Source: Siphonodentalium dalli
Lineage: Eukaryota; Mollusca; Scaphopoda; Gadilida; Siphonodentaliidae
DNA: 64,000 nt
Direction: 5' to 3'
NCBI GenBank assembly: GCA_032622095.1
Contig: CP136069.1
Coordinates: 186,919,122 to 186,983,121 of the forward strand
Below are positions 4,468-60,470 of the stretch, piece after piece. The notes under the pieces are model-generated. The model made no database searches. It was not told where the DNA came from and worked only from the letters and a program-made list of their open reading frames with translations. Position 1 is the first letter of the stretch; each line of letters opens with the position of its first letter. The translations under genes were made by a program, and so were the position numbers.

Positions 4468-6807
4468 TTATAATTGTTTTGGACAAGTATATGTATCAAG
4501 TTTTAAAAAGCAAGAAATTCCAAATTGTTCAAGAATTGTATACCAGACATCATTTCTTGTCTTGTTCAGAGACGCGCATTCCAAAATCGTATGTTGAATT
4601 TCGTCAAAAAAGACAGACTGGCACAATTCGCATTTCTGTAATAGATTGCACGAAGGTGAACAAATTAGTTGAGCTACGATGCGGTAATCGTCTGAGAAAT
4701 TTGGGTATTTGCGACAAGTTTTCCATAGAGAGGATAGCGAATGATCTAGATGAACATGACGAAATCTGTTGAATGTGGAATCGTGTGATGTGCGTCTATC
4801 CCAATCATCAAAAAGACTTTCTTTCTGTGAAGTTTTAACGATTTGTTTCCACTGTAGTTTTGAAGGGAATAATGACGAAGAACAGAAATTCAGAAAAATT
4901 AATGTAAGACCGTACTTATCAATAATTCTGGAAATATCTGAGAAATAAGACGATTGATGACCAGTTACGAGATATTCGGAGATCCGTACTAGAAATATTT
5001 CTGTAACTGTCTTCCCTGTACCCAAATTACATAGATTTTGAAAGAGAGATAGTTTTCTCCTTTCGATATATGATTCCAAACCATGTACCCCGAGGAGAGC
5101 CTGTGCCATGTCAGTTCTAGTTCTGATATGCAATCCTTGTATGTTTTTTATGCACAGCCGATGAATTTTCTCGAGGCGCTCGTTTTCTGAGTAGTTAAGG
5201 CATATGAGGAATTCTGAGCCGTATAGACCACGCGGGAGAACAATAGACTCATAACTTTTCAGGGAACTTAATGGAGTTATCCCTCCATAATAAAGACCCG
5301 CATCCGACAGCATGAAAAATGTGCTTCTAAGTTTGTTACAGATCTGAGTTACCAGATTGTCATTAAACTTAAATTTGCTAATATTGAGTCCAAGATGTGT
5401 GACAGATGTTGAATCGGGGATATTTTCGTTTAAAAAAGTCCATGTACGATTAGCTCTTTGATGTTCGTATTGTGATTCATTGAATACAATGAAGACAGTT
5501 TTGGTCGCGTTGAACTGGTATCTCCATTTACGACTAAAGTCAATACAGATTTGACACAGGTTCCGCAATCCTGTTTCAGTTAGAGAGAGGAGTACCATAT
5601 CATCAGCATGTGTCGGGGAAGCGCAATTGACGTTGTACATTTTGAGTCCCTGTCCTGAATTTTCAAGTAAATGAAGCAATTGGTCAATGTAGATTGTGTA
5701 CATTAATGGTGATATGGTACCTCCCTGGCGGGTACCAGCTTTGATATCGATCCAACGCGAGTCTTCGCCTTGGAATGTAGTTTTACATTTTAGATCCAAG
5801 AGAAGCTGAGCAAGCAGACGCCATATTTTTCCTTGGATGCCGCGTTGGTCAAGCTTGTAAAGCAGACCGTTAATCCAGACAGCATCAAATGCTTTCTTGA
5901 CATCCAAGAAGCAAGCAAATAATTTGCTATGCTTTTCGGATGTGAACGAAATACATTCATTCAGTATAAAGGAAGTCATGAGACAACTTACATTTTTCTG
6001 AAATCCGCTTTGGAGAGGGTGCGTTTGAATCTGCAAAGGTGTGTTTGTTTCCAATCTACGAAGTAAGACTTTTTCGAACACTTTGTATATTACTGGCAGC
6101 AATGTGATGGCACGATAACTATTGAAAGACTCTTTGGGTTTTGAACCTCCTTTGTGGAGTGAGACGATGAGACCCCTCTTCGCAAGCTTTGGAATGTATT
6201 CCAGTGATATAATATGATTGAAAAGGTGTGATAACGATTGTTCTATAATTGTTCCACCGAATTTCAGGTGTTCATAATATACGCCGTCGCAACCCGAGGC
6301 TTTGTTTGACTTAAGTGATTGGACTACTTCGTGTACCTCTGATACATTCACAGGATATGATGTCATCTTGTCAGCATCACTTAGATCTGATGATTCCAAT
6401 TTACATTCTACAAAGTCATTTACATGCTGGAAATGAGAATCATCAAATACACAATCATCAGATACAGAGAATATGTCCTCATAATAAGATATCCATGCCT
6501 CGGAAATTTCCTTATTGCCTCGAATAATAGCTCCATCATGTTTAAACATAGGTGTGGTACATTCTGTCCGTAGTTTCCTTTGAACATTAAATAGTCTGAA
6601 AAAGGTATCTTGGTCGGCTTCGGCTGCCTTATCTATTTCAGCATAAAAATGGTCTATAAATGATTGAGATGCCTTTCTGTATTCGCGCCTGAATTCAGAT
6701 TTGGAACGTTTATATGACTGATAACTCGAGTGAGAAGAATCATGAGGTTTTACATTTGAAATCCAGGTCGCACGCATTGCTGCCATCGCTTTGAGCAGAT
6801 TCTTCAA
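4468..6807 (-). pseudogene. LINE a reverse transcriptase, 779 open codons
   Basis: RNA-directed DNA polymerase of a non-LTR retrotransposon. Blocks in order: SNKASGCDGVYYEHL (about residues 167-181), SYRAITLLPVIYKVFEKVL (230-248), motif A FLDVKKAFDAVW with catalytic Asp302, TRQGGTISPLMY (359-370), motif C HADD (400-403) carrying the two metal-binding Asp residues, HLGLNISK (thumb, about 471), and a C-terminal Cys/His motif CELC...H...C (726-744) typical of LINE ORF2 tails. The YADD tyrosine is His here; this position varies in LINEs. The region is fully open, but the start is only the first Met after the frame break from the endonuclease, so it is the RT part of a broken ORF2. Confidence 0.92.
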
Positions 6808-6808
6808 T

Positions 6809-7850
6809 TTATTGTTCCAAAAAGGCTTTAGGTGTGAACGAAACTTTTTTCACGGGCACAGTTTTGCTGGAGGCAATGCATATGCCGTTAACTACGGCTG
6901 AGTAGTAATTGTCAAGATCACTAGCGTTGTTAATATGCGATGAAATTGGAGGCATGCAGTCGCGAAGGCCACTCTCGTATGCAGGTTGTAGAGATGGGTT
7001 AGCAGAGAATTGTTTCCAGTTATACTTTAGTCTGCCATCAACATAATTTCCATGTGGGGCATCGAAGTCAATAACGGCCCTGACAGGTCTGTGGTTTGAT
7101 AACTCAGCCATGTCGTCCGTAATGACCTCGACCTCCATCACGGTAGCCATGTCGTCTGCATGTACTAAAATGTGATCTATTATTGAGCCTGGTATATCGA
7201 TTGCTGGTATAAAAGTTTCATTGGCACCAATACAAAAGTCCTGGCAATTTGCTGAAATTAACTTGCAACGATTAAGTAAACGACGAAAGTGTTTACTTCT
7301 TGTGTCCATTCTAGTAATTGTCGCATTCAGATCACCCATTATTATGACCTTTCCATAATTGTTATACCTGTCATATATGTCACCAAGTTTTTGGGCATAC
7401 TCTTCGTAATGGTCTGAAGTATAGTTACTGGAAGGTAGATATACTTGGAAGATATAAAGGTATGTATGTTGCCCAAGGCGTATTTGAATGCCCATAATAC
7501 GATCGTCTTGCAAATCTATTGCGCAAACTGCGTTATCCAACCTTTTGTTCCAAAGGATTCCAATACCTCCCTTGGGGGCGACCTCTCTGTGTGGCCGTTC
7601 TTTGTGAAAAGTCACTGATGACATATGAGCTATAATTGCTACTCAGTGAGTCCAGAAAACGATGATCTTTATTCAACAACCAATGTTCACTCAGACCAAC
7701 TATATCATACCTTCCAGTGTCCAATATTATACGAGCGGCCACGACGATAAGTGGATTAGTGTCGATCGCAAGTTCATTTCGGAATATGAGACGATGAAAA
7801 GTATATGCATGGACATCAACAAGCATACGATATGTTGTAATAGTTGACAT
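6809..7850 (-). pseudogene. LINE a endonuclease domain, frameshifted
   Basis: Two overlapping minus-strand frames (7850-7533 and 7624-6809) together encode an apurinic-type endonuclease, the nuclease that nicks target DNA for target-primed reverse transcription. Visible blocks in order are YDIVGLSEHWLL, GGIGILWNKRLD, DRIMGIQIRL, VIIMGDLNAT (the GDxN block) and DDMAELSNHRPV (the SDHxP-like block), plus PGSIIDHILV. The frame changes near 7620: SSY continues as VTFHKERPHREV. A second change near 6810-6815 separates this part from the reverse transcriptase; the expected junction FWNNKLKNLL is readable across frames. The protein was originally continuous with the RT. Confidence 0.85.
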
Positions 7851-8480: not shown

Positions 8481-8890
8481 GATTCACTGCTCGACGTTCC
8501 TAGCCAATTATTCGCATAGTTCTCATAAGTATCGTTTCACTGTTGCAATATTCATGAAGTGGAGAGGCCATGTTTTCGACTGGTGTATATATAAAGAGTA
8601 TTTTTGTAAAACGCGAGAACATTAAGTTTATATCTCTGTTACTCGGAAAAAGATTACGTTTTGCTAATTTCCGACTCACAGCTCGATGTTCCTGGCCAAT
8701 TATACGCATAGTTCTCAACAGTAGTGTTTAAATGTTGTAATATTAAAGAAGGAATTGGGCTATGCTTTCGAATGATGTATAATATGTATTGTTTCATAGC
8801 TTTAAGTGCGAGACATTTGAGCTCTGTTCCTCATTCCTGTTACTCCAAATAGTCACTGCTTTACCAGTAGTTGTTCCTGTTCCTCGTGAA
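8480..8890. repeat. two diverged copies of the ~208-bp tandem repeat
   Basis: Two units about 190 bp apart, marked by CTCGACGTTCCTAGCCAATT and CTCGATGTTCCTGGCCAATT, then GTTGCAATATT, ACGCGAGAA and TATCTCTGTT. They match the better preserved array at 9430-10270. Confidence 0.8.
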
Positions 8891-8892
8891 GT

Positions 8893-9130
8893 ATGTGATT
8901 TGGGGGGGGTGGGTGGCTAACCCTTCACCACTCATATTTGTGTCTGTATTGCGTAAATAAAAAGAAAAAAGGAGCAAATTTTGACTTTTTTTTGTGTTCA
9001 CTTTCTTTTATCTTGTGGTGGATACTTTGAACAAGAAACCGAGAGCTGGCCCCGTGTCTTGACATATACTGTTCCAGATGTTCTTTCGAATTGGTCTCGT
9101 CCTTCGTAGACCTGTTCCTCATTCCGTTTC
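8893..9130 (-). mobile_element. family R remnant (copy 3)
   Basis: The stretch starting GTGATTTGGGGGGG followed by GGCTAACCC and TTCACC matches the 3' end of family R copy 1 (40036 onward). An A-rich stretch, GTGGTGGAT and CTGGCCCC also match. The variable 3' hairpin is deleted. It lies between two blocks of the 208-bp repeat, as if inserted there. The minus-strand frame 9122-8925 may be its decayed ORF end. Confidence 0.55.
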
Positions 9131-32877: not shown

Positions 32878-33045
32878 ATTTGCATTATGCAGGTGTCATG
32901 GCGTCAAGTGTAAACACAAATTTCTCCGCTCCGATAAATAATTAAATGTCTGGATAACAGAGTGTGGATCGCCTTAGCTAATTGTTCGAACTGATTCTAT
33001 TGAACTCATGTGAGATATATTGTGCAATAAGTTGGACTATTAATT

Positions 33046-34656
33046 ATGATCAAACGGGATTCCACCGTTGTTTTCGACCTAAAGCAGATCAGGCGGATTA
33101 CTGGTGAGGATGTTCTTCGCGCCGCCGAAAAAGTCGTCGCTGCAGACCAAATACGAGCGGTACAAATCACGAGAGATAAATGCTACATTACAGTGAGTAC
33201 CGACGAACTGAAATCTGAATTAATGCTGAAAGGGCTAAAAATGTATGGTTCAACTGTAAGGCCCATCGATGCCGAGAACAACAGTACAGTTGTTACCATA
33301 AAAGATGCCCCATTTCAAATGACCAACAAAGAACTCATAGACTGTTTTTCGTCATATGGGGAAGTTGATGCACAGTCGATAAAAAGAGTAACATTCAAAG
33401 TAAGTATCGTTGAAACAGGCACCAGGGTTATCCGGGTCAAAGAATGCAATGCAATCCCAAATACTATTACTGTGCAAGATGACCTTGAATTGAGAGTGTT
33501 TTCCGACAAAACAAAAATCGATTGTATGCATTGTTCACAATCACACATGCCCGGCGATATATGTGAGGAGAGTCGACTCGCGAACAGATTTTGCGGCAAT
33601 TGTCTGGCCAGAGGTGAACACTACTCACGTGATTGTAAAGACCTCGTTAGGTGCAGGGTTTGTCGGCTCTCTGGCCACAAATCAGTCACATGTCCGCTAC
33701 GCACAGGACAAGACCAGTATGACACACGTGGTCAATACCGACGACGCCCACCAAATGAGGACTACTTCCCGCCACCTAATTACGGTCAGCACCAGTCACG
33801 CCCTCCAGGCACCGATTACACACCATCGGCACATTACCTCTATGAACAGTTTGACAGCAGAGATGATTATCGGCAACGCCGACCGCAGATTAGCTTCCAA
33901 ATCGCCGCCACTCGCAACGATCGAAGTAATGCGACAGTGGAGGACAACATAACTGTTTATAATGACAACAATGGGCAGCCGAAAGCTACACCCGTCACTC
34001 AACGTACTCACGAAATTGACTCGCTCATTCTGGGTGCCAGTAACTGTAGAGACGTGCGGGTGAACAAACCAAATTCAAGAGTGATATCCCAATCCGGGGC
34101 TTCCTATGAACAGATCGACAAACTCATCGGTAAAGCCAAAGCTTTCAGTGACGTGAAGCCTGATAAAATAACGACAGTCATCATTCACTTGGGAACGAAT
34201 GATATCACCCATCACAGAGCTGACACCAAGATAATCACATTTTGGTTTAATAAGGCACAGGATAAACTTATAAAAGCGTTCCCGAACGCCGAAATAAATA
34301 TATGCAGCATACCACCGAGGAGGTTGCCAGGTGGCAAGAACCACAATTATAATACTGCGGCAAATGTGATTAATGAATATATGAACACACATTGTGAAAA
34401 TACTACGAAATATTTCTTCATTGACATTGATTGTGTGTTCATTAAAGATGGAAACATAGTTAAATCCTTGTTCAAGGACGAAGCTGACGGCGTGCATTTC
34501 AATTCTAAGGGAGTCGAAAGACTCTCCAGTGTGTTGGAATCTATTGTTCCGGAGATTGATTCCCAACAGGATGACAAGGTCGTGCCACAGACTGTGAAAA
34601 GGGGACCAGACCATTTCACATCACCATCAGAGCAAAATAAGAATGTTAAAACATGA
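33046..34656 (+). CDS. LINE b ORF1: RRM-like, CCHC knuckles, SGNH hydrolase
   Basis: 536 codons from a true ATG. About 80-155 resembles an RNA-recognition fold (TVVTIKDAPFQMTNKELIDC, then SYGEVDAQ). Cys/His motifs follow: C160-C163...C173, C183-x2-C186-x5-H192-x4-C197 and a canonical CCHC C203-x2-C206-x4-H211-x4-C216, expected to bind RNA. A Pro/Tyr/Arg-rich linker runs to about 320. The last part is an SGNH/GDSL-type hydrolase: ILGASNCRDV with Ser332 in the nucleophile block, LGTND (N385) and DGVHF (D481, H484), so all catalytic positions are kept. ORF1 proteins coat LINE RNA; esterase domains are known in CR1-group ORF1s. All three modules in one ORF1 with no lesions is notable. Confidence 0.9.
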   Translation: MIKRDSTVVFDLKQIRRITGEDVLRAAEKVVAADQIRAVQITRDKCYITVSTDELKSELMLKGLKMYGSTVRPIDAENNSTVVTIKDAPFQMTNKELIDCFSSYGEVDAQSIKRVTFKVSIVETGTRVIRVKECNAIPNTITVQDDLELRVFSDKTKIDCMHCSQSHMPGDICEESRLANRFCGNCLARGEHYSRDCKDLVRCRVCRLSGHKSVTCPLRTGQDQYDTRGQYRRRPPNEDYFPPPNYGQHQSRPPGTDYTPSAHYLYEQFDSRDDYRQRRPQISFQIAATRNDRSNATVEDNITVYNDNNGQPKATPVTQRTHEIDSLILGASNCRDVRVNKPNSRVISQSGASYEQIDKLIGKAKAFSDVKPDKITTVIIHLGTNDITHHRADTKIITFWFNKAQDKLIKAFPNAEINICSIPPRRLPGGKNHNYNTAANVINEYMNTHCENTTKYFFIDIDCVFIKDGNIVKSLFKDEADGVHFNSKGVERLSSVLESIVPEIDSQQDDKVVPQTVKRGPDHFTSPSEQNKNVKT

Positions 34657-34671
34657 ATTGAATATACCAAT

Positions 34672-36063
34672 GTGCAAAACCCACACATATGTATGAGTTG
34701 GCCTGAAAATTTTCAGGTTGACACTTGTCCGCAAAGCAATGTTGATTGTTTGTATAAACCTCACAACCATGTTAATGAAAACTCACACGCAATAAGAAAT
34801 GGTAATATCGTGAATGAACCAATCAACAGTTTTCAAATTATCCCAGTTTGTGACCAATGCGTGGATACAACTTGTGCCCATCAATTGAGAACGAACTCGC
34901 GGGAAGTTAACAGTTTTCACGGACAGTTTAACCGCACGATTAGTAAACGAGTTGGTGAACAGTTCGCTGCTTACTCTAACGTTTTCCGCGAAGGTAATCA
35001 GTTATCAACTGGACCGCATAACATGAACTCGGACGAACCGAACAACATTAACTCGCATTCCCTGAACATACTTAACAGTTACAATACGACTCATTTATCA
35101 ATCCATGATAACTGTAATCCCACGGATCATGTCAATCAACGCGTTTGTCACGTAAAGTCCGTTACTGAGAAGGCGGAAGGCATATGTTACGATTCTGTCT
35201 GTATGGAGTCGAGTGAAGAAACCCGTTACCAATTTGGAGACAACAATACGCGTTTCCATACTTACACCACATCTGAAAATCGTAATATATCTGATGTTCT
35301 CGCAGAATGTCGTGAAATTTTGTCCCATAATGTGACACATGAAAACACATTTATATCACATAATAATTTGATATACCTAGAACAATGTTTGTTTTCGGAC
35401 AAGCGCTACCCTAACAACCAGAATGATTATGATTATTTATGTCATTGTTATACATGTAAATTTATGAATACGTCAACAAAATATAATGATTATGTTTGCC
35501 AGACTGGCAGTGATAACGGAATAAGTACGGTTGAATCAAACGGAAATAAAGACAACTACGTCGATAGACATGAATATGATGAAGACGACGAAGGCGATGA
35601 TGATGATGATGATGGTGACGACGATGATGATGATGACACTTATGGTGATGCTGATGGTGGTGGTGACGGCGACGATGACGATGGTGGTGATGTTGTAGAT
35701 ACTGATGATTATGATGATGTTGATGATGATGACGATTTAGTTGATGATGATACTGATGGTGATGACAATGCTGAGGATGGGGAAGGTGATGATGATAATA
35801 ATGGTAATGTTAGTTATGATGATGTTGATATTGTTGATTATTATTATTATTATGATTGTAATAATGACGAGTCTAATGGCTTTGATTATACTTGTGAGCA
35901 TGATAGGTCACTTAAGAAACAATATGTGGTTGATAACAGCCTGTCGCAAGTACTGAGCGAAGCATATCATATTTTAGGCCCGGAATTTGAAGACGATCAT
36001 GAATATAATGAAATAACAAATCGGGTTACGTGCCATTCTCAGGCCCCCCTCACCGAATCTTGA
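34672..36063 (+). CDS. LINE b Asp-rich frame, likely ORF2 N-terminal extension
   Basis: 463 codons in the same frame as ORF1, separated from it by the single ORF1 stop TGA (34654-34656). The frame is open back to that stop; the first ATG is at 34693. The first 300 residues are rich in Asn, His, Cys and Ser (CDQCVDTTCAHQL, YLCHCYTCKF) without a recognised fold. Residues about 301-393 (35575-35850) are a run of Asp with Gly/Val/Asn, encoded by GAT/GAC repeats. It ends in CHSQAPLTES* next to a CCCCCC run; in the next frame the sequence continues directly into the endonuclease, so a one-base shift there probably cut it off from ORF2. A separate third ORF is the alternative. Confidence 0.6.
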   Translation: MQNPHICMSWPENFQVDTCPQSNVDCLYKPHNHVNENSHAIRNGNIVNEPINSFQIIPVCDQCVDTTCAHQLRTNSREVNSFHGQFNRTISKRVGEQFAAYSNVFREGNQLSTGPHNMNSDEPNNINSHSLNILNSYNTTHLSIHDNCNPTDHVNQRVCHVKSVTEKAEGICYDSVCMESSEETRYQFGDNNTRFHTYTTSENRNISDVLAECREILSHNVTHENTFISHNNLIYLEQCLFSDKRYPNNQNDYDYLCHCYTCKFMNTSTKYNDYVCQTGSDNGISTVESNGNKDNYVDRHEYDEDDEGDDDDDDGDDDDDDDTYGDADGGGDGDDDDGGDVVDTDDYDDVDDDDDLVDDDTDGDDNAEDGEGDDDNNGNVSYDDVDIVDYYYYYDCNNDESNGFDYTCEHDRSLKKQYVVDNSLSQVLSEAYHILGPEFEDDHEYNEITNRVTCHSQAPLTES

Positions 36064-36064
36064 A

Positions 36065-39000
36065 TGTAATACAAGTAGCGGAACTGACATAACAAATAAT
36101 GACCTCGATTTGTCAACAGAATGCAATTCACCGCAGCAAAACATCCGGCCACAGTGTACAAAATTGAAAATACTAACACTCAACGTATGTGGTCTTCGGA
36201 ATAAGTTGAATTACCCAGAATTCCAATCTTTGTGCCATGGTCATGATATTTTATGTTTCTCAGAGACAAAAACAGACGACTGTGATGAATTAGTTTTAAC
36301 AGGATTTACATTCCATATGAAAAACCGCGCATAATTTTCGCGTGTGAAATCTGGTGGCATTGTTATAGGCATTAAATCTTATTTGATAACGTCCACTCGC
36401 ATTTTATACACAGATTGTCAGTTTGTTCACTGGGTAGAGATAAACATAAGATATAATCAGGCACGCAGTGGCGAGAAACTTGTTTTGGGCGCGGTATATG
36501 TCCCCACAGAGGGAACTAAATACTCATCAAATTCGGCAATCAGTAAGTAGAGGAAGAAATTCTGTACATGAAACAGCACTACATGCACGAAACTATACAT
36601 GTGACCGGTGATTTCAATGCACGTACTGCAGTTGAGTTAGATTATATACCGTACGAAGAATGTATAACTGATCATACATGTATACGCACCGGTCATTCAC
36701 AAGCGTCACACAATTTATAACCGCTGAGACAGTACTCGAGAAAGCTGGCCTACCTCTAATAAGACACAATAGAGATCGCTTAAAAAAAAAATTTCGGGCA
36801 ACAATTGATATCAGTTTGTAGATTGAATGATTTATTGATTTAGAACGGGCATTACGGCGATGATAAAGAAATAGGATCATTGACTTGTCGCGACGCCTCA
36901 GTTGTTGACTATATGATCTGCTCGTTTCCAGCTCTGACCATGGTCGCCAATTTTACGATTTGTGAACTAAATAAATTATTCTCAGATGTTCATAAAGCCA
37001 TCACAACTGAATTAGCGATTGGTTTGGATAATGAAAGTGAAATTCGTACCGATAAACTCAACTCGGAAATATTAACACGTAAGTGGGACCCGACTAGAAC
37101 AACCGAATTTATATGGAACCTAGACCCAATTGAGATTGCCGAACTAAAGCACATGCTAAATGACTATCAAACTCCTGATGTTACTAAAGTGGAAATTAAC
37201 GAAGTAGTGGGAAAGATATCCAACATACTTAACAAATCCGCATCTGGAACTTTTGGAACTTATAGTAAGAAACAGAGAAAGCAAAGACAAAAACGAAATA
37301 CCAAACCGTGGTTTAACTCAGCTTGTTGGAAAGCCCGAAAAACATATCGCAAAGCAGAGAGACAAACTAAGCAACACCAAGTGAGTTTTCAAGTCAGTAT
37401 ATGAGGGAAATGTCCAGGCAATATAAACGCGAGATGAATGGGGCTATGGAACTGCACAGAGAATACATGGGTCGCGAAATGTCAGAGTTGAAAAAGCGAA
37501 ACACAAAGAAATTTTGGTCAAACCTGAACAAACGTGACAAAGATATGACTAGTTCCATACAACTTGATACACTAGAAACATATTTTAGAGATTTGAACGC
37601 GATATCATACGCCGATGACCCTGAAATGAAATGCGAAGATGGACACCCGGACAATTTAAGCACGCTTAACCAGCCAATTTCAGTCGATGAAATTAAAACG
37701 GCAATTAATGGCCTTTGAAATAACAAATCGTCCGGTGACGACAAGCTCTTTAACGAATATATAAAATGTTCTTGTGATACATTAATTGATATCTACTGTA
37801 AAAATTTTAACCTAGTTTTTGAGTCTGGTCGTGTCCCAGACTCATGGGGGATAGGAACGATTATCCCACTGTACAAAAACAAAGGTGACATGAATAACCC
37901 CAAGAATTACAGGCCCATCACTCTCTTGAGTTGCTTCGGAAAACTGTTTACGAAAATTCTTTCGAATCGTTTGTATTTATATGTTGAATGTGATAAACTT
38001 TTATCCGAGTACCAATCTGGATTCCGGAAAGGTTATTCGACGACTGACAATATTTTCACCTTGCATATTTTGAGCGAAATGACTCGATGCTTGAAACGGA
38101 ACTTATACTGTGCATTTATCAATTTTGAAAAAGCTTTCGACAAGATATGGAGGCAGGGACTCTGGCATAAATTGTTAGCCATCGATATAAATGGAAAAAT
38201 CTACAGAATAATACGTAATATATACTCAGATATTAAGTCAAAAGTAAAATTTGGAAACTGTTTGTCAAATTATTTCCCCTGCTTATCAGGGGTGAGGCAA
38301 GGTGAAAACCTTTCTCTCCTCTTATTTGCAATATATCTCAACGATTTGGAAGATTTTCTTAAAGAAGAAAGGGTGGAGGGTTTGTCAAAAACAACAGATG
38401 ACTTGAAAAATAACTTGGATGTCTATGTGAGACTTTTTGTTATACTATATGCGGATGACACGGTTCTGTTAGCCGAAACACCCGTGAAACTTCAGAATGC
38501 TCTCAATGCTTTTCAAAGATATTCCCAAAAGTGGAAACTGACAGTTAATGTCGAAAAAACTAAAATTATGCTGATTTCAAAATGCAGTATACCGAAAGGT
38601 AGGAAATTCTTTTATGACGGAATAGAAATTGAATATGTGAAATACTTTAACTACCTTGGAATCATACACACTAAATCGGCTCATTCTCTTTGGCTAAAAA
38701 GACTCTAGCGGATAAGGCCAGGAGAGCAATGTACTCGATAATATCAAAGTCTAGAACTCACTGTCTGTCAGTTAAAAATCAATTTGATCTGTTTGATGCC
38801 CAAGTTACTCCTATACTGACGTACTGTTGTGAGGTGTGGGGATATGGAAATAACGATATTTTTGAAAATATACACAAAAAGTTCTTGAAAGATGTACTTC
38901 AGTTGAAAACATCTACTCCAGATTACATGATATATGGTGAAAGTGGCCGTTTCCCCTTTAATATCACTATAGATTTGCGTATGATCAAGTATTGGCTGAA

Positions 39001-39628
39001 AGTGAGGAACATGACCGACACTAGATACTGTAAGATTATGTACTTGTTGGCATTGCAGCTCAGTGAAAATGCATCCGCGAAGTTCGAATGGATTGAGAAA
39101 GTGAAGACAGTGCTAACCCACTGTGGCCAAGGGCATCTTCTTTACACCTACACACGTTTACGTTCGGAAGAAATAATCACATATGTTAAATGCAGTCTCA
39201 TTAATCAATATAGGGCCGTTTGGAAATCAGCTATAGACAAACCCAGTAGAGGTAATATATACAAGATTTTTAAACACAATATCTGTTTCGAAATGTATTT
39301 GGACTGCCTTGACAACAAAAACAGAAGAACATTGTGCCAATTCCAAACATGTAATCATAGACTGCCCATAGAGAGAGGAAGATGGAACGACACTAATGTA
39401 ATGGAACGAACATGTCCCTTGTGTAATAATTATAAGCTTGGCGATGAACTTCATTACTTGCTCGAATGCAACCACTTTATAGATGTTAGAAATCGTTTTC
39501 TCCCGGCTAAATATATCAGAAAGAGACATGCGACCATCGATATTCTTGACGACTTATTTAATATGACCGATATAGCATCCCTCCGCCGACTATGTTCCTT
39601 CATTAGGGAAATTAACCGTTATTTTTAG
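36065..39628 (+). pseudogene. LINE b ORF2 (endonuclease + reverse transcriptase), disabled
   Basis: Endonuclease: LKILTLNVCGLRNKL, DILCFSETK, SGGIVIGIK, VTGDFNART (36601) and SVVDYMICSF, then LFSDVHKAI. RT: NKSSGDDKLFNEYIK, NYRPITLLSCFGKLF, EYQSGFRKGYST, motif A FINFEKAFDKIW, GVRQGENLSLLLF and YADD (about 38451). C-terminal CPLC...H...C at about 39413-39470. Disablements: TAA at 36330-36332; stop and frame change at 36548-36600; poorly readable 36620-36870; frameshift near 37390; TGA at 37716-37718; frameshift near 38690. The usual motif A Asp is Asn (AAT at 38121-38123), which should abolish polymerase activity. Confidence 0.9.
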
Positions 39629-40020: not shown

Positions 40021-40040
40021 CATATAGAGGATAGTGATTT

Positions 40041-40084
40041 GGGGGGCTAACCCCGGATGGTCGAATATACCGAGAGGTATATCC
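40041..40084 (-). other. family R 3' stem-loops, copy 1
   Basis: In plus-strand notation: GGGG-CTAA-CCCC, then GGATGGTCGA, then a 7-bp stem ATATACC (40065-40071) / GGTATAT (40076-40082) around GAGA. The same positions in copy 2 pair with different bases. Confidence 0.75.
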
Positions 40085-40164
40085 ATTCACCCATCATTTT
40101 CAGAGCTTTATTTATAAATAATCAATCATAAAAAAAGAAAGAAAAACAAAACTCTTTTTGGTTT

Positions 40165-40938
40165 TCAATTTCTTCTTGGTAGTGGTGGATCTTTCGATAG
40201 GCTGATGTCAATCCTGCCCTTTGCTTGTCCGATGGTGACTCTTCCAGATGATGATCGATGTCGATCTGGCCCCTTGTGTATCTGGCGATCTCTCAGCAGG
40301 AATAATTCGTAATTGCTTGGTTGGTATGTTTTTCCTGCTGAGTAGTGGTCACTGATCGCTGTCCTGATGCGTTGGTATTCGCCGTACATCATCTGTCGCT
40401 CTTCTCTACTTGGCAACGCCGGTTTCTCTTCATACTTCGGCGTCACATGGACGGAGGTGGTGGTTTCCGTCCCTGGTGGAGTCTGGCTAGGTGGAGTTGC
40501 CATCTCCACATCGAAGACAGCGGCGGGGACATCCGGAATGGCGTCAGCGTCCCTGTTGCCGCTGCCCTCGTCAACGACAGGGACATCCGGGGTGACATCG
40601 GCGTCCCTGCTCCTGCTGGTGATGGCATCTACAGCAGGCCGATCTTCTGCCCCGGAGGCCAAGTGGGAGGGAACTGGGCATCTCTCAGTTCCCCGTTTCC
40701 ACTCGGCCCTCCTGATGGCATCTCTGCGGCGCCTTGAGGAGGTCTACGTCCTCTTCCCGGCGATCTTGGTAGCCTCTTTCCGGTGGAGTCCGGTAGGTCC
40801 ATCCAGGCCACGGCCGGTAGAGGGTTCTACCGGAGTGACATGGAACCTCAAAACCACGTCCAATCTGCCCGTATTAGCGTGGAGAGACCAGCTAATACAG
40901 TCGGCAGATTGGTAACCGCTCAGCACGCTGCGAACTTG
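40165..40938 (-). pseudogene. family R ORF, copy 1 (start lost, one stop)
   Basis: One minus-strand frame matches the copy 2 protein: IPSQVRSVLSGYQ, then ANTGRLDVVLRFHVTPVEPS, then RRRRDAIRRAEWKRGTER, LASGAEDRPAVDA and RDADVTPDVP. The ATG is replaced (TAA just before DLIPS) and there is one in-frame TAG at about 40744-40746. The frame otherwise stays open for ~254 codons, close to the 258 of copy 2. The C-terminus (SLSKDPPLPRRN) differs from copy 2, and RDAD..PDVP is duplicated. Plus-strand ORFs here (40345-40737, 40367-40915) are antisense shadows. Confidence 0.75.
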
Positions 40939-40990
40939 GCTGGGGATTAGATCTTATGCAGTTGACCGGTTGACTGGGGTTGTATTTTAT

Positions 40991-41201
40991 ATGGTGCAGA
41001 CTAATAGATGTTGGCTTCAGTAAATAATCCCCAGTCTCACATTGATTGTTTTGAGAAACGAGTACTTTCACCTAGCTTATGTATCCCGTCGTTAACATTA
41101 TCGATAGCCGGCAACAAAAGCGTGTACACGCGACGTGCTAGTTACGCACGCCTGCAGTGCAGATCGCAATTACCGGCGGCTCGTCGAGGTGTCTAATAGT
41201 T
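40991..41201. other. no gene seen
   Basis: Short stretch between family R copy 1 and array d of copy B; no recognisable features. Confidence 0.5.
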
Positions 41202-41597
41202 GAGTATGGATATAGTTATATCTAACAATAATAGTTCAATATGGATACATTTACATTTAACTATAATATTTCAATATGGATACATTTACATTTAACTATA
41301 ATAGTTCAATATGGATATAGTTACATTTAACTATAATAGTTGAATATGGATATAGTTATATATAACTATTATTGTTAAATATGGATATAGTTATATATAA
41401 CTATTATTGTTAAATATGGATATAGTTATATATAACTATTATTGTTAAATATGGATATAGTTATATATAACTATAACAGTTGAATATGGATACAGTTATA
41501 GTTAACAATAATAGTTTAATATGGATACAGTTATATTTCTATAATTGTTGAATATGGATGCTGCTGTTTTGTGAAATGACATGCTTCCTGTTGCTGA
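41202..41597 (+). mobile_element. family S copy B, left part with array d
   Basis: About ten ~35-bp units, reverse complement of array d (ATATGGATATAGTTATATAT), to about 41565. Then ATGCTTCCTGTTGCTGAATT, the inverted match of 23508-23527 in copy A. Interrupted at 41598 by the hAT element. Confidence 0.9.
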
Positions 41598-59450: not shown

Positions 59451-59484
<34 letters not shown>

Positions 59485-59498
59485 GCAGGTCATTGAGG

Positions 59499-59540
59499 GG
59501 GGTTAACCCCGGGATGGTCGAAAGGGCCGATGGGCCCTTT
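59499..59540 (-). other. family R 3' stem-loops, copy 2
   Basis: In plus-strand notation: GGGGTTAACCCC (59499-59510), GGATGGTCG (59512-59520), then a stem of at least 7 bp AAGGGCC / GGCCCTT (extendable to AAAGGGCC / GGCCCTTT, 59521-59540) around GATG. Same place as the ATATACC / GGTATAT stem in copy 1. Confidence 0.8.
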
Positions 59541-59595
59541 CCTTCACCCCTCCTGTTATTGACTTTATTTAGAACAAAGCTGAAAAAAGAGCATT

Positions 59596-60372
59596 TTATG
59601 TTGTTAGATTATTTTCTTTTTTTCTTTTTTTCTTCGGGTGCTGTTTTTCCGAAGACGATTGTGCAGATGGTGGGGTCGTCTGTGAATCCTGGTAGGCTCT
59701 GCATTGCGCTAACGCTGCATCCGCCTGGGCTTGCATTCTGTCAATTGTGGCATGTAATGCGGATTCTTCTTTTTCTTTTGGTGTTAGGCCAGGAGCAGAG
59801 GGTGTTGGTTCCTGCTCCTCTTCCGCGATGCAGTCGGGGGACACCGGAGGTCTCGGTGTCGGTGGATTGTAGTCCTCCGCTGCATCCTGGTCAGGAGACG
59901 GTGGTAGTGGTGGCAAAGTCTCCATCCGTACAACAAAGTCGGCGGCAGGGACGGCCGGGGTGACGTCGGCGTCCCTGTCGTTTCCGCTATTGGTGTTGGT
60001 GGCTGACGCATCGACAGTGGGCTGTTGTTCTTGCGCAGAGGCCAGGTGGGGGAGAACTGGGCGTCTCTCAGTTCTCCCATGTCTCCACCTGACCTTCCTG
60101 TCGGCGTCCCTTCGGCGGCGAAACGGGGTCTTCTTCTTGTTCTTCTTTTTCTTTCTTCCGTCTATGTCCGTGGTAGTCAGGCCAGCCCCGGACCGGTGGA
60201 TTCCGGTCGGACCTATCGAGCTGCGGCCGGCAGAGGGTTCTTCTGAGGCGACTCGATATTCCAGAACCACGTCCAGTCTGCCCGCGTAGGCATGCACATG
60301 CCAACCAAGACAATGGACAGACGGGAATCCGCTCAGCACGTTGCGGACTTGGCTGGGGGTTAAGCTATCCAT
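59596..60372 (-). CDS. family R protein, 258 codons, unrecognised
   Basis: Starts MDSLTPSQVRNVLSGF, with a conserved N-terminal segment AYAGRLDVVLEYRVASEEPS shared with copy 1. A basic patch follows (RKKKKNKKKTPFRRRRDADR, about residues 73-92), then HLASAQEQQPTVDAS and RDADVTPAVPAADF, a long Pro/Glu-rich stretch, a short helical segment (MQAQADAALAQCRAYQ) and a Lys-rich tail. The base composition is far more GC-rich than its surroundings. The open frame and similar length in copy 1 support real coding; the basic regions suggest nucleic-acid binding (inference). No known family is recognised. Plus-strand frames over it (59493-59963, 59960-60289) are shadows. Confidence 0.65.
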   Translation of the reverse strand: MDSLTPSQVRNVLSGFPSVHCLGWHVHAYAGRLDVVLEYRVASEEPSAGRSSIGPTGIHRSGAGLTTTDIDGRKKKKNKKKTPFRRRRDADRKVRWRHGRTERRPVLPHLASAQEQQPTVDASATNTNSGNDRDADVTPAVPAADFVVRMETLPPLPPSPDQDAAEDYNPPTPRPPVSPDCIAEEEQEPTPSAPGLTPKEKEESALHATIDRMQAQADAALAQCRAYQDSQTTPPSAQSSSEKQHPKKKRKKENNLTT

Positions 60373-60399
60373 GTCCAGCCAAGCCCGACAAAAAACTCA

Positions 60400-60455
60400 C
60401 GGTCAATCAACGGCTCGTGCGTCAAGCACAATGCGACCGTCCCGTCGATTGACCG
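60400..60455 (-). other. family R 5' stem-loop, copy 2
   Basis: CGGTCAATCAACGG (60400-60413) pairs with CCGTCGATTGACCG (60442-60455): 13 of 14 Watson-Crick, the last a G-T type pair, loop 28 bases. Lies in the 5' UTR about 28 bases before the ORF start. Confidence 0.7.
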
Positions 60456-60470
60456 GAACAAGAATGAATT

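Follow-up and report, generated by a model that had tools for sequence, protein, structure and literature searches.

Family R of Siphonodentalium dalli: a young retroposon family with a selected basic protein and a folded 3' tail maintained by compensatory change

The stretch of DNA analysed here (the window) comprises 64,000 nt of the 2.23 Gb, nine-contig genome assembly of Siphonodentalium dalli (GCA_032622095.1, contig CP136069.1, 186,919,122-186,983,121, forward strand). It harbours three copies of a retroposon that we call family R, and these three copies are the only places in the 64 kb that match our model of the family's 3' tail:

59453-60466, minus strand: copy 1, a full-length family R retroposon (heads and tails aligned with genomic copies)
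60325-60456, minus strand: folded 5' domain of copy 1, with hairpin H1 (14 bp) and a hairpin that presents the start codon in the loop (fold z -4.39)
59596-60372, minus strand: 258-codon ORF, from the start codon at 60372 to the stop codon at 59596-59598
59564-59569, minus strand: AATAAA upstream of the folded tail (from the sequence; also in the majority consensus of 54 tails)
59511-59550, minus strand: tail stem A (59550-59545 with 59516-59511) around hairpin B (59541-59533 with 59528-59520)
59497-59510, minus strand: tail hairpin C, GGGG/CCCC
about 40026-40953, minus strand: copy 2, 5'-truncated, with a broken ORF
40041-40092, minus strand: folded tail of copy 2 (stems A, B and C), hairpin B of the ATATACC type
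8886-9110, minus strand: copy 3, 5'-truncated, with hairpin B deleted (model match 8890-8954, 26.3 bits)

Copy 1 reads, from 5' to 3', as a folded 5' end, the 258-codon ORF, AATAAA, the folded tail and a run of 30 A (59482-59453, minus strand); its 5' end lies near 60466 and its exact flanking repeat is just 6 bp long. The first-pass annotation, made from the sequence of the window, had described a minus-strand ORF common to the copies at 59 and 40 kb and accompanied by AATAAA. In copy 1 all 258 codons are indeed open and AATAAA lies at 59569-59564, whereas the 5'-truncated copy 2 retains the ORF as two pieces, of 69 and 192 aa. The two different hairpin stems reported between the same conserved flanks are both present, but the copies had been interchanged: the ATATACC stem belongs to the 40-kb copy (ATATACC-TCTC-GGTATAT on the minus strand, placed at window position 40065) and the AAGGGCC stem to the 59-kb copy (AAAGGGCC-CATC-GGCCCTTT at 59540-59521, minus strand, with one further G-C pair below). 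As described, at four of the seven inner pairs both bases differ between copies 1 and 2 and pairing is preserved. The structure extends beyond these seven pairs, with hairpin B being 9 bp long and enclosed by a previously missed outer stem A of 6 bp (GGGGTG/CATCCC); hairpin C has 4 bp. Copy 3 has lost the hairpin, as had been noticed, and scores 26.3 bits with the tail model versus 101.7 and 78.9 bits for the other two window copies; on either side of it, at 9111-9120 and 8876-8885, stands the 10-bp repeat GAGGAACAGG.

The window contains other repeats as well. A LINE on the plus strand (33031-39628) has a GDSL-esterase ORF1 and a reverse transcriptase (RT) ORF and ends in (TTG)n, an end unlike that of family R, and a second LINE on the minus strand (4468-7642) has an RVT_1 ORF and an upstream endonuclease ORF (Exo_endo_phos). 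A 35-bp satellite array occupies 23429 to about 27000 and 41194-41545 (106 overlapping 300-nt matches in register); it includes an inverted piece ~240 bp upstream of copy 2.

Family R is numerous and young, its members being retroposons of roughly 1 kb. Searching the genome with the protein of the copy 1 ORF gave 4923 first-look candidates, a rough count, of which 144 were scored, all with E of 2.3e-29 or better and with matches on all nine contigs; searches with tails gave 1692, 802, 1320 and 378 candidates (rough counts, 40 scored each). Since a head search found five places, the query's own included, with 100% identity over 185 nt, the family has been active recently. The earlier description of these elements as retroposons holds: exact flanking repeats of at least 10 bp were found at 17 of 32 full-length copies, and of at least 8 bp at 20 of 32 (one of these 20, at L006, being a run of A), as compared with a mean of 0.04 and a maximum of 1 (at least 10 bp) or a mean of 0.7 and a maximum of 3 (at least 8 bp) in a mismatched-flank control. 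The test covered copies with a recognised head and tail plus enough flank, allowed the repeat to lie up to 35 nt upstream and up to 42 nt downstream, and dropped L004, L012 and L017 as duplicates of L003 and L002. At a further locus, L007, nearly identical stretches of ~85 bp, judged by eye, flank the R copy; they would make an unusually long target-site duplication.

Truncated copies have lost their 5' part and retained the 3' end. Copies with the tail type seen in the window (tail 1) end in CATTCCCGC or A, many of them stopping at the fixed CATTCCCGC with no run of A and some carrying such a run (of 30 A in copy 1, and long in L024 and L031), while several copies with a second tail type, described below, end in (TAG)n. 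In loci with both head and tail, the frames listed between the two (cut-off 90-130 aa) include none for an RT or endonuclease. Given the flanking duplications, the 5' truncation and the short repeats at the ends, together with this lack of an RT and endonuclease of its own, family R moves by target-primed reverse transcription, with the endonuclease and RT supplied in trans.

The first-pass annotation had suggested looking for an autonomous LINE with the same 3' hairpin, and none was found in 58 tail-selected loci or in 33 LINE 3' regions. Similarity to the R ORF is present in 47 of the 58 loci; in all the other 11 (L022, L033, L072, L074, L080, L093, L095 and L098-L101) the stretch preceding the tail reads as 5'-truncated R, and L033 and L095 lie within LINEs. 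The tail was a LINE's own end in none of the 58. L033, with an RT ORF 440 nt before the tail, was rejected as the partner: its junction is that of a 5'-truncated R in the 3' UTR of a LINE, and the 13 other ends fetched from the L033-type group have another tail. R is nested in a LINE at L095 as well, where an endonuclease ORF continues into the tail. Neither tail profile matched in any of the 33 LINE 3' regions, which are 13 ends of the L033-type LINE and 20 others, some of which may stop short of the true 3' end (best tail-HMM match 4.9 bits, E 1.1, on the reverse strand). An RVT_1 search of the genome scored 150 of 38730 candidates, and the tail was present in none of the 20 scored places that were sampled 3'-wards. 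The L033-type LINEs L039-L051 have another structured tail, a small end hairpin of their own (CTTCTCC-loop-GGAGG; the loops vary) with an A/T-rich, AATAAA-like end after it.

What the heads and tails fetched was family R, truncated R tails and one unique junction of an R head with a LINE. At this locus (L054:1-1160; one of ten head-fetched loci) the R head gives way, near L054:288, to part of a LINE that includes an RT frame (RVT_1, E 1.9e-15). The junction is spanned by L054 alone of 40 scored matches, the other 39 starting at or a few bases past the breakpoint, and therefore does not mark where a repeated LINE begins; as it occurs once, L054 was rejected as an autonomous R. No flanking repeat of at least 8 bp was found in the 3 kb of this locus. 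L054 could be a chimeric insertion formed when the RT changed template, and as such could provide a lead to the partner LINE.

These searches bear on the view that family R is an internally deleted derivative (a SIDE, or an element like HAL1 or HeT-A) of an autonomous LINE, its ORF being the ORF1 of that LINE and still in use. Elements of this kind exist, Persaeus and Zenon (excerpted from PMC6740152) and HeT-A (excerpted from PMC5537684) being examples; a basic ORF ahead of a 3' recognition tail would fit an ORF1-only derivative, and L054 does join an R head to a LINE fragment with an RT frame. However, no LINE with the tail emerged from the 58 tail loci or the 33 LINE 3' regions, and the L054 junction is single among its 40 scored matches. 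We regard such a derivation as rather unlikely, though the ORF search behind this question scored 144 of 4923 candidates and may have missed such a LINE.

The 3' domain of family R, stem A around hairpin B, is maintained by compensatory change. Both window tails fold below chance (z -2.68 and -2.91; 3 and 1 of 200 shuffles as low). Pairing was followed in two sets of tails, both aligned without structure guidance: A1, of 20 tails, and A5, of 54 distinct tails that were left from 66 hits after removal of identical cores. A5 omits hits below 38 bits or ending before model position 84 (e.g. copy 3, L005 and L007), and badly decayed tails are consequently under-represented in it. In A5, pairing is kept in 98.2% of 1014 cells, and changes on both sides occur at 8 of 19 pairs, in 95 cells as compared with a shuffled mean of 31.7 (0 of 500 shuffles as high); because the rows are related, the number of events behind these 95 cells is much smaller. 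When the partner was shifted by 1-3 columns, 41-70% of cells were paired and double changes occupied at most 23 cells. The smaller A1 has 96.8% of 373 cells paired and 7 pairs with changes on both sides, in 35 cells, the shuffled mean being 9.9 and the slid versions giving at most 6. The number of further pair types did not exceed that in shuffles (16 versus 15.6 in A5; the observed number was reached by 148 of 500 shuffles for A1 and 286 for A5). Hairpin B exists in paired versions that include AAAGGGCC, GGAGGACC, AAAGGGTC, AATAGACC, GATATACC and AATGGGCC, some with a G-U pair. What had been seen in two copies of the window is thereby extended to the genome, where other copies, 54 distinct tails in all, keep the stem paired through double changes. 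Folding de novo with RNAalifold recovered stems A and B in both sets and hairpin C in the 20-tail set only, hairpin C being absent from the 54-row consensus; 95.7% of its cells are paired in the 54 tails, with one double change only, and in copy 1 it is part of the minimum-energy fold but not of the centroid.

A second tail type is found in L059-L061, which have a head and an ORF of the same kind but end in GTGGGTTGTAGGAGAGGGGTTCCGCCCCTTTCAAATCTTCCCGGGAAAGTTTCCCAAACCCCC, followed in several copies by (TAG)n. Its 11 distinct sequences match the first tail weakly (best E 0.017). In folding predictions, five of eight sequences show an outer stem, a hairpin and a second hairpin, as in tail 1; the five include four near-identical sequences, the outer stem measures just 3-4 bp (z -2.12 for L060), and we read this as a possible likeness of layout between the two tails. 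Three tail-2 matches lie ~1.2 kb apart on one strand at G000:C6:26672661-26675178, which suggests tandem R copies.

Because the tail combines a conserved fold with free stem sequence and a position adjoining the start of copying, we infer that it is recognised by the RT of a LINE. The A-B stem would be the handle that the RT of a putative stringent-type LINE grips in order to begin copying; as described in an excerpt of PMC4176376, proteins of stringent-type LINEs bind the stem-loop of the 3' tail and need it for retrotransposition. What ranks as the main rival to this recognition is a role of the fold in forming or stabilising the 3' end of the RNA, which would be polyadenylated just past hairpin C and copied by any poly(A)-using LINE, with the fold between AATAAA and the A tract drawing the two together in space. 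The AATAAA, which in copy 1 precedes stem A by 13 nt and is present in the majority consensus of 54 tails, and the A tracts of some copies (copy 1, L024 and L031) also fit 3'-end formation, and to that extent speak against recognition by an RT in trans. On the other hand, neither the many fixed CATTCCCGC ends that lack a run of A nor the (TAG)n ends would be expected from an RT that reads poly(A), and we consider this account of the tail unlikely. That the paired changes reflect correction of an inverted repeat at the DNA level (palindrome or gene conversion) and not selection on the RNA is very improbable: template switching can homogenise inverted repeats, yet stem A, whose arms are set apart by hairpin B and unpaired bases, also exchanges U-A for G-C at one pair, in 23 of 54 rows.

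Family R proteins are basic and about 250-310 aa long. The ORF of copy 1 specifies an N-terminal helix-strand-strand element, a basic RRRRDA..W motif, a Pro/Asp-rich middle and a basic C end, and an alignment of 16 ORFs has invariant positions along the N-terminal element, in RRRRDA..W and in an RD.D.T..VP...F.V motif. Length and sequence differ widely in the C-terminal third, which nevertheless ends in a basic stretch in most of the 16 rows. For the N-terminal 72 aa (two window sequences) AlphaFold predicts a helix at residues 6-14 and strands at 19-29 and 32-41 with modest confidence (mean pLDDT 56; 77 for residues 21-40). Pfam revealed no family common to the 16 ORFs and no L1 ORF1 match; stray matches concerned six families with one ORF each (best LAG-3, E 3.6e-4), and the ORF piece of copy 2 matched SIP1 at E 0.029. 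The PDB gave 0 matches for the 16 ORFs, and three pattern matches in viral contigs included no relative by tblastn. L025, L063, L070 and L071 have a second, overlapping frame of 98-211 aa open inside the R ORF.

Purifying selection acts on the ORF, and the frame noticed in the window is not of a neutral kind. All 26 pairs with dS up to 1, from 55 pairs of 11 ORFs, have dN/dS of 0.37-0.74, with upper bootstrap limits of 0.50-0.99, all below 1; the remaining 29 pairs, in which dS exceeded 1 or was saturated, were set aside. Over the first 100 aligned codons dN/dS is 0.18-0.65. An earlier set of 12 ORFs (66 pairs), from which the present set differs by omitting L002, L005, L009 and L028 and adding L055, L063 and L070, contained higher values: 0.89-0.91 for L005 versus L001 and L002, and 2.5 for the close pair L001-L002 (31 non-synonymous and 4 synonymous changes). 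Such pairs, a few of which approach or exceed 1, and the strongly varying length and sequence of the C-terminal parts are what one would cite for the ORF being a neutral relic in an element of which only the RNA matters (a SINE with a compositional long frame); against the values below 1 in 26 of 26 usable pairs and the 24 open frames of at least 230 aa that have the start motif, among 68 scanned loci that include truncated copies, this idea is scarcely tenable.

At the other end of the element, the 5' domain presents the start codon in a hairpin loop, as seen in its fold and pairing. None of 200 shuffles of the window 5' domain folded as low as the domain itself. Heads are of several types, one beginning with CATTCTTGTTCCGGTCAATCG and having a CGTCTCCGGATCGCT variant, another beginning with CTCTGGCAGGAGAGTGG, and L037 and L009 having other leading sequences; the 24 heads folded have minimum energies of -30.6 to -81.8 kcal/mol, values that come without a shuffle control. 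Heads of the first type (15 aligned, 14 distinct) form a 12-bp hairpin whose loop holds the start codon, with 98.2% of 167 cells paired and one pair showing a double change, in 3 of 14 rows. The count of double-change cells was reached by 4 of 500 shuffles; the covariation is nonetheless weak, because 269 of 500 shuffles reach the same number of double-change pairs. ARAGORN found 0 tRNAs in 11 loci, and in 17 loci searched against Rfam up to E of 5 there was no match to a tRNA, 5S or SRP RNA and none to an HDV-like or hammerhead ribozyme, and no hit reached the cut-off of its family. The one hit with a ribozyme name, CoTC on L029 (E 4.6), lies outside the element, and a hit over a tail, Phe_leader on L024, is below threshold (34.5 bits versus a cut-off of 55). 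An HDV-like ribozyme in the head was rejected: Rfam names none, and in our reading of the fold the outer stem of head 1 is continuous.

The modules of the element recombine, as witnessed by L028, which over the first 300 columns is 98-100% like L029 and over columns 500-1100 is 97-100% like L025, and thus joins an L029-like 5' part to an L025-like 3' part. Subfamilies probably swap heads, ORF ends and tails by template switching.

Taken together, we propose, with a probability of roughly six in ten, that family R is a non-LTR-type retroposon with RT and endonuclease supplied in trans, a selected basic protein and folded ends, its tail being read by a stringent-type LINE. Most likely, such a LINE reads the tail in trans while the basic protein binds its own RNA. 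The latter step is suggested by the basic motifs and by analogy with HeT-A: the R protein would bind R RNA in the manner of LINE ORF1 or of Gag proteins, and would thereby favour the copying of its own source element, while the 5' fold would govern translation and template switching would allow subfamilies to exchange modules. Family R resembles a parasite that lives off another parasite while supplying a helper protein of its own. Most non-autonomous retroposons are SINEs without a protein gene or deletion products in decay. More tentatively, family R may exemplify protein-coding satellites of LINEs that have a Gag-like gene of their own, folded ends and no autonomous parent, and that swap modules to follow their partners. 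If so, satellite retroposons would borrow only the endonuclease and RT, changing heads, ORF ends and tails to follow partner LINEs. No description of a family like R was found in the literature searched (open-licence papers). A selected gene in an element that lacks an RT raises the question of why the element brings a protein when its partner already has one, with cis-preference, packaging and choice of partner as candidate answers. The many subfamilies, the two tail types and the mosaics constitute a natural experiment on what the RT of a LINE reads in RNA tails.

The nearest known kinds of element are SIDEs and HeT-A, and family R may be of an ORF1-only or SIDE-like kind. As far as an excerpt of PMC6740152 describes them, SIDEs such as Persaeus, which derives from the CR1 LINE Zenon, are short, non-autonomous elements of non-LTR type mobilised in trans, as is family R. 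Family R differs in its selected protein gene, several heads and two tail types, and in that no parent LINE was found for it. The HeT-A element of Drosophila is not known to produce target-site duplications. It encodes Gag but no RT, which is supplied in trans, its gag has signs of negative selection, and it forms arrays on chromosome ends (all from an excerpt of PMC5537684). Family R likewise has a selected ORF, possibly with a gag-like function, and no RT listed between head and tail; unlike HeT-A, it is dispersed over all nine contigs, has flanking duplications (17 of 32), 5' truncations and a structured 3' tail, and its protein has no common Pfam match.

HAL1 elements are ORF1-only L1 derivatives of mammals that retain an ORF1-like gene without ORF2. 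Family R shares this arrangement, but its ORFs have no L1 ORF1 match in Pfam and its tail is structured and often lacks poly(A). With SINEs that carry the tail of a stringent LINE, family R has in common the 3' stem-loop at the start of copying and a presumed dependence on a LINE (for the SINEs, as excerpted from PMC4176376); it differs in being about 1 kb long and protein-coding under selection, in having many 5'-truncated copies and in lacking a tRNA, 5S or 7SL head by ARAGORN and Rfam. Like non-LTR retroposons that move by target-primed reverse transcription, it has flanking duplications, 5' truncation and 3' ends of A or short repeats. Finally, its tail has a stem-loop structure with covariation and, by analogy with the tails of stringent-type LINEs, is a candidate binding site for an RT.
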